NCBI GenBank assembly: GCA_002726395.1
Contig: PBTA01000066.1
Span: 18,166 to 52,439, forward strand
Source of the DNA: Methanobacteriota archaeon
GTDB lineage: Archaea; Thermoplasmatota; Poseidoniia; Poseidoniales; Poseidoniaceae
Direction of reading: 5' to 3'
Length of the DNA stretch: 34,274 nucleotides
In this document: in pieces, positions 22,580 through 27,256 of the stretch
Numbering within the stretch: the first letter of the stretch is position 1
How the letters are laid out: each line of letters opens with the position of its first letter
Position numbers and translations under genes: made by a program
Notes under the pieces: generated by a model
The model's database searches: none
Seen by the model: only the letters and a program-made list of their open reading frames with translations
What the model was told of the DNA's origin: nothing

Positions 22580-22633
22580 CAATTTGCGAGGGGTTTGTTC
22601 AATACCCTCCCGCGATAGGGGCGAACTATCAAC

Positions 22634-23458
22634 ATGTCTTTGCGAATTACTCACTTAGGAACAGGTAGCCGAGGCAACTCAACGCTGCTTGAAACTGATG
22701 ATGTAAAGGTGTTAATTGATTTAGGATTTAGCGGCGCCCAGTTGCAAAAGCGACTAGCCATGCTCAACATTGAGCCTGAGGATATTGACTGCGCCCTACT
22801 AAGCCACCATCATGGAGATCATGGCGGTGGAGCGACTATTGCTCAACGCAAATGGGACATGCAAATTTTGGCTAATGAAAGAACTGCACAGGAATTAGAT
22901 TTAGACCCCTTGAAAACTTCCTACTTTGGCGCCTTGGATGTGATTAGAATCGGTGACGAATTATCAATCCTAACCGTCCCAGTCCCTCATTCTGGCTCAG
23001 AAAATGTCGCCTTCGTGGCAAGCTGTGGTGGAGAAAGAGCCGCAATAATTACCGATTTAGGCTCTTGGACGGATGAATTAATCAAGCACGTATATGGTTG
23101 TGAACATATTTCAATCGAAGCAAACTATGATGATCGAAAATTGAGCGCCGGACCATATCCATATTCTTTGAAAGAGAGGATTCGTGGTAGAGGAGGTCAC
23201 TTATCCAACAGTCAAACTGGACAATTTCTTGCTGAAGTCAGTACGGAGAGCACGCGAAATATAGTATTGACACACCTGAGTGAAAAAAACAACTCGCCGC
23301 ACCTAGCAGAATCTACCGTATTGTACTACATCTCGGAAGTATTTGACGGAGACATATACATTTCATTACAAGATGGTCCAGAAATGACTCACTATATCGG
23401 AGCAAGCGGTCTTGAAAATCTTACGCCCACTAAACTAAATGAAGTCAAGATTGACTAA
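22634..23458 (+). CDS. Metallo-beta-lactamase-fold hydrolase, YycJ/WalJ-like
   Basis: LGTGSRGNSTLLETDDVKVLIDLGFSGAQLQKRL (GSxGNS motif), SHHHGDHGGG metal-binding motif, AIITDLGSW, IVLTHLSEKNN. Confidence 0.88.
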   Translation: MSLRITHLGTGSRGNSTLLETDDVKVLIDLGFSGAQLQKRLAMLNIEPEDIDCALLSHHHGDHGGGATIAQRKWDMQILANERTAQELDLDPLKTSYFGALDVIRIGDELSILTVPVPHSGSENVAFVASCGGERAAIITDLGSWTDELIKHVYGCEHISIEANYDDRKLSAGPYPYSLKERIRGRGGHLSNSQTGQFLAEVSTESTRNIVLTHLSEKNNSPHLAESTVLYYISEVFDGDIYISLQDGPEMTHYIGASGLENLTPTKLNEVKID

Positions 23459-23467
23459 AAATTAGTC
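23453..23467. repeat. Perfect inverted repeat overlapping the MBL gene stop codon
   Basis: GACTAA-AAA-TTAGTC; 6-bp arms, 3-nt loop; TAA stop at 23456-23458 lies in the left arm. Confidence 0.8.
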
Positions 23468-23469
23468 TG

Positions 23470-23489
23470 ATTTAGGTCAATACCTAAAT
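23470..23489. promoter_or_regulatory. Perfect inverted repeat abutting the pilin-operon start codon
   Basis: ATTTAGGT-CAAT-ACCTAAAT; 8-bp arms, 4-nt loop; right arm contains the AT of the ATG at 23488. Confidence 0.7.
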
Positions 23490-24567
23490 GATACCGAAGT
23501 ATGAGAGGTTTGTGCCACCTAGCAGACGCTACGTTTCAGGACCCCGGAGACGGGAAAATGAAGAGGGTGTTAGCGAAGTCCTTGGCGTGATTATGATGCT
23601 TGCCATGGTTGTTACAATAATGGGTGGTGTTTGGGTATTTTTGAATCCATATATTTCTGATTTTGAAGACAACACCAACTGGAATGCAGCCAATGGCATT
23701 GCTGACCGCTTAGAAGACAGGATAGATGTTTCAGCAGATGCGCCAGAGGGGACTGGAATACGTCATAGTTTGCAGATGAGAACAACACTCTTGCAAGGTG
23801 TCACTAATCTCGAGCACTGGACAATAAGTGCTGATTTGACCCCATATGAGGTAGTAAATATCGGGCAATATAGCAACAATTCGTTTATCATAACCAGTAT
23901 GAACCAGACAGCATCAAAAGTTACCATCACAACAGAAAATAGTCAATTCACTCAAATGATAAGCGCTAACAATGGTTTGGTTGAGCACAATATGCAATTA
24001 GGTGAATGGTATATTATCACTGTTTTTAATGACAATGATGACCCGATTCACCGTAGCGTCAAATATTCACTATCTGGGCTTCGTTTGATTACCAGTTTAG
24101 GCAATGGTGAGCATGAAATATATCTCATCAATAATGCTAGAATTGAGCATTTTGCCGATTCAGCTTGGGAAATTAGTCAATTTCCAAGAATTGAATTTGA
24201 TGAACTCGCAACAGGAGGCATACGCTTGTCGATGGTTCTAACCAATGTAGTAGTAAATGGAAGTTTAGGTAATGCAAACCAACTTGGTATCGACATTATT
24301 TCAGCTGGCTCAATAAACCCATTTTCTGGAGAATGTTTCAATATACGATATACGACAACAAACTCTGTATCTCCAGTCATAAGCCCACAATATGATGATT
24401 TGTGGTTAAATTCATATTCATTAAACCGCGCATCAGGAACACTGGATTCTTACGTCGGTTTATCACCATTTGAAAGAGCAAGTGGAATAGATGGCATAAG
24501 TGTAAATTCTTTGGGTCAATCGGTATTTTTTGATGTAACTATTAATCAGGTGGTTTTGGAAAGATGA
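23488..24567 (+). CDS. Archaeal type IV pilin-like protein (class III signal)
   Basis: RRRENEEGVSEVLGVIMMLAMVVTIMGGVWVFLNPYI: charged N-terminus, Gly/Val-Ser cleavage-like site, then H-domain, as in archaeal pilins. Confidence 0.8.
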   Translation: MIPKYERFVPPSRRYVSGPRRRENEEGVSEVLGVIMMLAMVVTIMGGVWVFLNPYISDFEDNTNWNAANGIADRLEDRIDVSADAPEGTGIRHSLQMRTTLLQGVTNLEHWTISADLTPYEVVNIGQYSNNSFIITSMNQTASKVTITTENSQFTQMISANNGLVEHNMQLGEWYIITVFNDNDDPIHRSVKYSLSGLRLITSLGNGEHEIYLINNARIEHFADSAWEISQFPRIEFDELATGGIRLSMVLTNVVVNGSLGNANQLGIDIISAGSINPFSGECFNIRYTTTNSVSPVISPQYDDLWLNSYSLNRASGTLDSYVGLSPFERASGIDGISVNSLGQSVFFDVTINQVVLER

Positions 24568-26789
24568 AACAGAATCTAACCAGAAATGAAGAGTCTGTTT
24601 CTGCAGCAATTGCGACAGTTTTATTATTTGGTGGAGTTGTTTCAATCATCGGTTTAATGCTGGTTTCAATGCTTCCAATAATTGAAGAATTAGAAGGTTC
24701 AATTGAGCGTGACGATATGTCTTCACAAATGATGATTTTGGCTCAGCAAACTGAAATTTTAAGCGAGCATGGCATGCCTGGTGATTCTACCGAAATAGAT
24801 CTAATACCAATTGACGGAACCCTCTCATGGGACACTACAAGAGGTGGAATGTGGTATTCATCTACTTGGAATAGCGACACGACATTTAGGATGAAAGGAG
24901 TATTAGACTTTGATGATTCAATACAAATAAAACATCCTGAGAGTAAATCAACCTCGGTTTGTTTTGACGACCTAAGGTTAGGCCCGACAAAGCCATTCAT
25001 ATATTCCATTCCAGATTACATAGAAGAAATTATGATTAGTCCAAACCAAGGAATCGCATCACCACTTGGGCCGATAGAAATCAAAGTGAATTCTGCTGAG
25101 CGATTAATCGAAAAGATTGATTTGAACATCGGTTCTACTGTTAAATTAACCACTACTGAATTCCAATATTACAAACTTGAGTCTACCCATGAACTGAACA
25201 TATTGGCAAGTTTGGGTAGCGGAGGTGGTACTATTTTTATGCCAGATAACCCCAGTCAAAGTGATTTAACCGGCAGGTCTTGGAGCATACCAATGAATCA
25301 AGGTAACAATACAGTACACATCATGAGTGAAACATCTAATCAAATTGAATTGATGGTAGATGGAGAGGAAACCAGACATATTGTTACCAATGATGAGGAC
25401 CCAAGAATTGGTGTTTCTTGGACACATACAATCGATTTGAATTCGCCAAAATTAGTATCTCTTTCAACAAGCGCACCATCACGACTTATTTTGCTAACAT
25501 CTGACAATAATATGACAGGTAGCGTAACACTTCAATCAACTTCTGGTGCTCTAATCGGCTCAGAGTTCATCACACCTCAGCTAACTGGAAGTTTAGAATT
25601 ATTCAACCCAAATGAAGAGATTGCAACTATCACTTGGAAAGGGGGAGGAATTTCAATTCAAGCGGATTCAACTGTAATCATACCATGGCCGCCTCAGACT
25701 GTTAACGGTGCGCCAATTATAGATTCAGATAAAGAAATATCAGCATATTGGCACAATAATGATTCCATTAATCCAAGTAATGGATTGAATATAATTCCGG
25801 CAAAAGATACTGGATTTTCCTCTGGAAAATCCCATAGATATGAGATATTTTCCAGCAATGGACTGGAATCAATACATACTCAATTAGCAGGGTATAGTTC
25901 AGTACTAAACTATTCAAATACTAACTCTGCTTATCAGAATCTTACCTTCAACAACCCGTTCCATGAACTGCAAACAAGCCAAGGCAGCCACAACGTTTCT
26001 GTGGAAGATGGGCACCCAATTAGAGTTCACCGGAGTACTGGAGATTCGGGATTAAGTCAATTAATGCATGATGGAGAACAGAGATGTGTTGGAATTAATA
26101 CCACAGCAAGCGGGTGGATTACTACAGAATTGCCATGGAATTCCGTTTCTGGTAGAAGCGAAGGTCAAATTATGAATGCTTGGAGTCAAGGAACACATCC
26201 CTCGAGTTACTCTATAAGTCTAATTGGTAATAACGGAAAGACTGACCATCAAATCATTGCATCATCATGGATTTTCCATATCTCTAGACTTACTTATTCT
26301 TTCTCCTCTTCTATTACCGGACTTGAAGTTGCTTATTCTAACGGGGCAGTACTAACAAACCATCCAGAATTTTTGCCTACCGTATTGAAGCAACCAAATG
26401 ATAGATCTGGACCAGGACCCCGATTTGCAGCAACGATTCCTGCATTAAATCCTACAGCAGATAGTGTATCTGGTGCGGGTGTAATGAATTTAGATATAGA
26501 ATTAGCATACAGAGAGTCATTAGCCTCAGACATTGCATATGAAGTCAGACGTGGGTGGTATAGCCCATATGGTGAAGAGATTGCAAATTCTGCAGCCAGT
26601 AGTCTAGATTCTAGTATCGATTGGACGATTTATCCCGGACGATTGGATTTGCTCACAGATTATGTGGGTTGGGTCCCTGACCCGAGTATCGGAACCTCGG
26701 AAGCGGTTTGGCATACCAATGGCGATCCAATTCAATTTAGTTTACAACTATCCTCACTTGATGTAACAATGACGGAGGCTGTTGGATGA
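24564..26789 (+). CDS. Large pilin-like surface protein (type IV pilin-like N-terminus)
   Basis: MKQNLTRNEESVSAAIATVLLFGGVVSIIGLMLVSMLPIIEELEGSI; ATGA overlap with the upstream gene (24564-24567). Confidence 0.75.
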   Translation: MKQNLTRNEESVSAAIATVLLFGGVVSIIGLMLVSMLPIIEELEGSIERDDMSSQMMILAQQTEILSEHGMPGDSTEIDLIPIDGTLSWDTTRGGMWYSSTWNSDTTFRMKGVLDFDDSIQIKHPESKSTSVCFDDLRLGPTKPFIYSIPDYIEEIMISPNQGIASPLGPIEIKVNSAERLIEKIDLNIGSTVKLTTTEFQYYKLESTHELNILASLGSGGGTIFMPDNPSQSDLTGRSWSIPMNQGNNTVHIMSETSNQIELMVDGEETRHIVTNDEDPRIGVSWTHTIDLNSPKLVSLSTSAPSRLILLTSDNNMTGSVTLQSTSGALIGSEFITPQLTGSLELFNPNEEIATITWKGGGISIQADSTVIIPWPPQTVNGAPIIDSDKEISAYWHNNDSINPSNGLNIIPAKDTGFSSGKSHRYEIFSSNGLESIHTQLAGYSSVLNYSNTNSAYQNLTFNNPFHELQTSQGSHNVSVEDGHPIRVHRSTGDSGLSQLMHDGEQRCVGINTTASGWITTELPWNSVSGRSEGQIMNAWSQGTHPSSYSISLIGNNGKTDHQIIASSWIFHISRLTYSFSSSITGLEVAYSNGAVLTNHPEFLPTVLKQPNDRSGPGPRFAATIPALNPTADSVSGAGVMNLDIELAYRESLASDIAYEVRRGWYSPYGEEIANSAASSLDSSIDWTIYPGRLDLLTDYVGWVPDPSIGTSEAVWHTNGDPIQFSLQLSSLDVTMTEAVG

Positions 26790-27256
26790 AAACTAAACTT
26801 TCGAAAACCGAGGACATCAGTGGTGCAGCCACTGAACTAGGATACATCTTCACTTTCTTACTTGGAGTAATGTTGTTATCTGTATTTAGTATTTGGACAT
26901 GGGATATTGAAACTGCAACCCGGGATAGATGGAATGAACAGGCCGTCAAAATGAATTTAGACGATATTGCTGATGCCATTGAACGAGCTGATGAAGCTAG
27001 TAGGCTTGGCGATATTGAATATACCGAATCCGTATGGTGGAGAGCTACTGAGGCTGACGAAAATTTGTTTACCTTACAATTGTCTGATAATTACTTAATT
27101 TTAGTTGATGAAGGAGGTCCACTAGATACGCAAGTCTACGTTTCAGGGGCAGGTGCAGGTGGGCATAGTGGAACTGTTAATTTATCTGGAGCCCAAATGG
27201 TTTGGATATGTCACAAAGATGGTGTTACAAGTATTGAGGTCGATAGACCCCAATAA
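26786..27256 (+). CDS. Small pilin-like protein
   Basis: MKTKLSKTEDISGAATELGYIFTFLLGVMLLSVFSIWTWDIE; ATGA overlap with the upstream gene (26786-26789). Resembles minor pilin-like proteins found next to archaeal pilins. Confidence 0.7.
   Translation: MKTKLSKTEDISGAATELGYIFTFLLGVMLLSVFSIWTWDIETATRDRWNEQAVKMNLDDIADAIERADEASRLGDIEYTESVWWRATEADENLFTLQLSDNYLILVDEGGPLDTQVYVSGAGAGGHSGTVNLSGAQMVWICHKDGVTSIEVDRPQ

Follow-up and report, generated by a model that had tools for sequence, protein, structure and literature searches.

A palindrome ahead of a pilin operon of Ca. Poseidoniaceae probably overlies a conserved core promoter

The locus and its question

The window analysed here, a stretch of 34,274 nt, comes from the draft genome (1.8 Mb) of a Ca. 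Poseidoniaceae (Marine Group II) archaeon. On its forward strand, a gene for an MBL-fold metallo-hydrolase (ORF at 22634–23458; Pfam PF12706, E = 2.2e-14) is followed by three genes, each overlapping the next by 4 nt. The first of these (23512–24567 from the GTG start proposed below) encodes a type IV pilin-like protein with an archaeal type IV pilin N-terminus, although the match (Pilin_N, E = 4e-4) lies under the gathering score and curated cut-offs. The second ORF (24564–26789, 741 aa) has a hydrophobic N-terminus and a weak match to DUF7289, and the third (26786–27256, 156 aa) matches no family and has an N-terminus that appears pilin-like by eye. In four genomes from a second, sister family of the order (L285–L288) the MBL gene is present and the pilin gene does not adjoin it.

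The question raised by this locus is what, if anything, is done by two palindromes standing in tandem at the MBL–pilin junction. The preliminary description reported GACTAA-AAA-TTAGTC at 23453–23467 and ATTTAGGT-CAAT-ACCTAAAT at 23470–23489. Both, read directly from the forward strand, are indeed perfect, and the first does carry the MBL stop codon (TAA, 23456–23458). The first was proposed to be a terminator or 3′-end hairpin, and the second an operator or an RNA hairpin hiding the pilin start codon.

Statistically, neither palindrome is unusual. Of perfect inverted repeats whose arms span 8 bp or more and whose loops span 3–8 nt, the window contains six; 40 dinucleotide shuffles gave 4.0 on average and 11 at most. 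We read 386 kb of this genome and found 53 such repeats. This is the single place in the 386 kb where a repeat of at least 8 bp and one of at least 6 bp lie within 5 nt of each other. By a rough estimate from repeat densities, however, such a pair is expected about 0.1 times per window and about once per 386 kb, so that the tandem arrangement is unremarkable. Furthermore, a search of the genome for other copies of the 20-nt second palindrome, suggested earlier as a check, returned none at 0–2 mismatches.

Pairing is not conserved among relatives

We gathered MBL–pilin junctions from the genus and the family, covering several genera, and compared 96 distinct ones; pairing at the second site was scored over 56 distinct versions aligned to the second palindrome. 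From the outermost pair inwards, complementarity holds in 8, 24, 12, 16, 33, 44, 27 and 8 of the 56 versions, i.e. below half for six of the eight pairs. Changes on both sides of a pair amount to five cells only, all of them confined to the outermost two pairs, which are mostly mismatched, and the outer arms vary freely. Outside the window, both the perfect second palindrome and the first palindrome occur only in L006, the nearest relative, whose pilin is 92% identical; a wider draw of the genus (63 genomes) contained no relative closer than L006. Thus, the alignment called for in the preliminary description finds arms that neither persist nor covary. The dyad of a palindromic repressor operator is expected to be conserved in orthologous promoters, and a hairpin sequestering a start codon to keep its pairing by compensatory change; neither pattern is seen. 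The symmetry of the second palindrome is thus probably an accident of this species, a judgement that we make jointly with the promoter explanation developed below.

A linear block is conserved instead of the dyad

What is conserved at the second palindrome is a linear block, aaGGTSAANNSCTAAATGRTACC in the genus (23473–23495, forward strand), which by column conservation extends from −39 to −17 relative to the GTG at 23512 and is positioned off-centre to the dyad. Its central string, GGTSAA-N4-TAA, is present in 94 of the 96 junctions, against a chance of about 0.0014 per junction. Neither the string nor the MBL promoter motif described below is present in the remaining two junctions, L187 and L188. 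As this string served as the search pattern, its columns are invariant by construction. Beyond it, however, all 18 representatives of the group in which the spacing is 24 nt share the ATG (−24 to −22), the T at −20, the C at −18 and the C at −28. As a regulon motif the block shows no genome-wide enrichment over a reversed control, and its best match in the scanned genomes is usually the pilin site itself. The conserved bases outside TSAA (CTAAATGRTACC) are specific to this operon, and they may bind a regulator. By itself, conservation of the block fits a DNA element and a linear RNA element alike.

The pilin start codon

The block also points to the likely position of the pilin start. In all 94 junctions, an in-frame ATG or GTG lies 24, 25 or 26 nt past the TAA of the block, which in the window is the GTG at 23512. 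By contrast, the counterpart of the ATG at 23488–23490, called as the pilin start in the preliminary description, is unusable in 33 of the 94, either because it is missing, because it lies in another frame or because a stop codon follows it in frame. It directly follows TAA but is out of frame in the set with one extra base (e.g. L121 and L147), it is missing in L167–L185, where TAA is followed by GAGGG and the block is retained, and in L029 and L034 an in-frame TGA comes after it. Since a start is found at the downstream position in every relative and the upstream ATG fails in a third of them, the pilin most likely begins at GTG 23512, 24 bases later than had been assumed. The residues ahead of the pilin motif VSEVLG would then number 19 rather than the 27 counted from ATG 23488, and a 19-residue leader is the more usual of the two for archaeal prepilins. 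The second palindrome does run into an ATG, as had been said, but the conserved start is elsewhere, and this ATG is probably part of the promoter. Likewise, the statement that no other intergenic sequence remains holds only with ATG 23488 as the start; from GTG 23512 the gap is 53 nt. A short upstream ORF of the form GTS-AAN-NNN-TAA within the block was considered and rejected, because its first codon is more often GTC, which is not a start codon.

A probable promoter signature in Poseidonia genomes

To place the block in context, we counted motifs upstream of genes with at least 45 nt free upstream in four genomes of the genus (G000, G002, G020 and G056; loci L190–L229 and L303–L341). T[CG]AA lies at −28 of the ATG in 65 of the 669 genes, compared with about 12 per average position, with gene starts called mechanically, as strictly unambiguous starts were too few for use. 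The enrichment is significant in each of the four genomes separately, and 63 of the 65 genes have a pyrimidine (C or T) at −1. The same TTSAA was recovered by an unsupervised motif search, and the promoter consensus, AGCGAAAAATTCAA, contains CGAAA. TSAA also rises a second time, slightly, between −37 and −35. Closely packed genes carry a Shine-Dalgarno sequence, GGTGA, at −9 instead. From these patterns TSAA looks like the TATA equivalent of leaderless promoters in Poseidonia, and the genus thus seems to combine leaderless TTSAA promoters with Shine-Dalgarno sequences within operons. Among the papers that we searched, none describes a promoter motif for Marine Group II. In the haloarchaeon Haloferax volcanii, promoters have a BRE of CGAAA and a TATA box of TTWT (PMC4983044). 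The genus-wide signature resembles these in its CGAAA-like BRE, its A/T-containing core 28 nt from the start and its pyrimidine at −1, but its core is TTSAA and not TTWT, and the pilin site differs further in having a weak BRE, a GGTSAA core and 35 nt to the start codon.

The second palindrome as the probable site of the pilin promoter

TCAA at 23477–23480 (forward strand) matches the genome-wide TTSAA and has its T at −35 from GTG 23512; we propose that it acts as the TATA equivalent of the pilin operon. The core is conserved in orthologous promoters, as expected of an archaeal BRE/TATA element (GGTSAA, 94 of 96), and the alternation of C and G in GGTSAA parallels that in TTSAA. Transcription would begin 26–28 nt downstream of T 23477, at about 23503–23505, where T at −10 and G at −9 are conserved, and this would give a leader of 7–9 nt ahead of translation from GTG 23512. 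The distance from TSAA to the start codon is conserved at 35–37, compared with the 28 common genome-wide. We rejected an alternative placement in which the GTG is strictly leaderless and CTAA is its TATA box, since CTAA shows no enrichment at −28.

The MBL gene appears to have its own upstream promoter of the same kind. TTCAA at 22598–22602 (forward strand) places the T of TCAA at −35 from the ATG and is conserved at −35/−36 in relatives, the same distance as at the pilin gene. This site has a promoter-matrix score of 8.8, within about the top 0.05% of window positions. The pilin site, on the other hand, scores 3.2 (top 1% of positions), below the 4.3 of a site at 23445, and at its BRE position the A at −39/−38 is partly conserved and the matrix score is weak. 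The putative MBL promoter (22598–22620) is strongly conserved among its orthologues, most relatives also having CGCG about 12 nt past TTCAA. With a conserved TTCAA of its own, the MBL gene can form a transcription unit separate from the pilin operon. Moreover, since TCAA fits a promoter element, the second palindrome would overlie the promoter core and not form a start-hiding hairpin. Overall, the reading that we consider the probable one puts the pilin operon's core promoter beneath the second palindrome, with TCAA as core, a start at about 23503–23505 and translation from GTG 23512, the symmetry of the palindrome being accidental.

Possible regulation through the block

The preliminary description had also given the junction a regulatory role. 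The strong constraint on what appears to be the control region of the pilin operon makes such a role reasonable, and an operator may lie there; the dyad itself is not conserved. Regulation through the conserved block would be plausible. A more specific proposal, compatible with the promoter reading, is that a dedicated DNA-binding regulator of the block, or of the dyad in this species, blocks or aids TBP/TFB and so regulates pilus expression. The block reaches beyond TSAA (−39 to −17), is specific to the pilin operon with no enrichment genome-wide, and overlies a weakly matching promoter; such places are frequent sites of archaeal regulator action (PMC5817253). Nevertheless, we regard a dedicated regulator as rather unlikely: the dyad is lost among relatives, the 20-mer occurs just once in the genome, and no regulator gene was identified. 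In addition, blocks of this sort may be usual, because conserved gene-specific bases occur at the MBL promoter too.

Two known systems are instructive here. The junction of this species resembles the palindromic operators of archaeal repressors in having a dyad over the probable core promoter, but here the dyad is neither conserved nor repeated elsewhere in the genome. In the Sulfolobus ups pilus promoters, a weak BRE is preceded by a hexanucleotide that is conserved and not palindromic; this motif, common to 214 genes, occupies −44 to −39 relative to the start site (PMC5817253). The junction studied here shares with them the pilus operon, the conserved non-palindromic control element and the weak BRE, but it belongs to another archaeal phylum and another pilus, and its block spans the core promoter and occurs once per genome. 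By analogy, the weak BRE and the operon-specific bases would fit a promoter needing the help of a regulator, as proposed for ups (PMC5817253). More speculatively still, and with a somewhat lower chance than for a dedicated regulator in general, the family-wide operon-specific element could be the site of a putative Poseidoniaceae pilin regulator, acting together with lineage-specific inverted repeats (e.g. CACCCCCC/GGGGGGGTG) just upstream of a weak-BRE TTSAA promoter.

Inverted repeats upstream of the block

Such repeats bear on the first palindrome, for which a role as terminator or 3′-end hairpin of the MBL mRNA seems improbable. Inverted repeats of unrelated sequence do recur at this place: perfect arms of at least 6 bp are found in 12 of 29 junction clusters compared with 1.3 in mononucleotide shuffles, although the 12 are not independent cases, because some clusters are related. 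At other gene ends the frequency is 3–10%, under slightly different loop limits. The repeat in this species, however, is short and A+T-rich and is retained only in L006; an intrinsic-type terminator has a stable stem and then a U-run, whereas here a 6-bp A+T-rich stem is followed by TGATTTAGG, which is no U-run.

Among the relatives, L022–L028 and their kin (a cluster of 20 junctions) have a strong palindrome, CACCCCCC-NNN-GGGGGGGTG, 2–5 nt upstream of the GGTSAA block, and a shorter form of it is present in L053–L057. Near-exact versions give at most one match per genome in 30 genomes of the genus, at the junction in 11 of the 13 with a match. In L167–L185, a hairpin GAGCCC-TGTAA-GGGCTC at the end of the MBL gene contains the MBL stop codon, and junctions in which TAA replaces TGA as that stop show a compensatory GGGCTT in the opposite arm. 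The junction repeats of relatives may be regulator sites placed upstream or hairpins at the MBL 3′ end, and no function for the window's own 15-mer follows from them.

Proposed RNA elements at the junction

Two explanations act through RNA, and both are less probable than those above. In the first, GGTCAA would be a Shine-Dalgarno sequence for ATG 23488 in a joint MBL–pilin transcript, and some relatives indeed have a block reading AGGTGA, which would make a good one. However, the Shine-Dalgarno sequence of the genus is GGTGA at −9 and the block here lies at −13, 40 of the 56 versions have C instead of G, and the block persists in L167–L185, where the ATG is missing; we therefore give this explanation very little weight. 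Least probable of all is that the RNA of 23470–23489, in a leadered or read-through mRNA, forms a hairpin which hides the start codon and switches translation on and off: the isolated 45-nt stretch does fold well (−11.4 kcal/mol, z = −3.6), but z drops to −1.3 once 76 nt of context are included, the pairing and its few two-sided changes are those of an unmaintained stem, the ATG inside it is not the conserved start, which lies 24–26 nt past TAA, and the hairpin would be wholly outside the mRNA if the predicted start at about 23503–23505 is right.

Implications

In an A+T-rich genome, an eye-catching palindrome can be an accident above a conserved linear element. For Ca. Poseidoniaceae, the comparison revises the probable start codon of a pilin that occurs across the family. 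It also yields a usable genome-wide signature, comprising a CGAAA-like BRE and TTSAA in leaderless promoters with a pyrimidine at −1, and provides a testable candidate promoter for a surface-structure operon in these abundant uncultured marine archaea.
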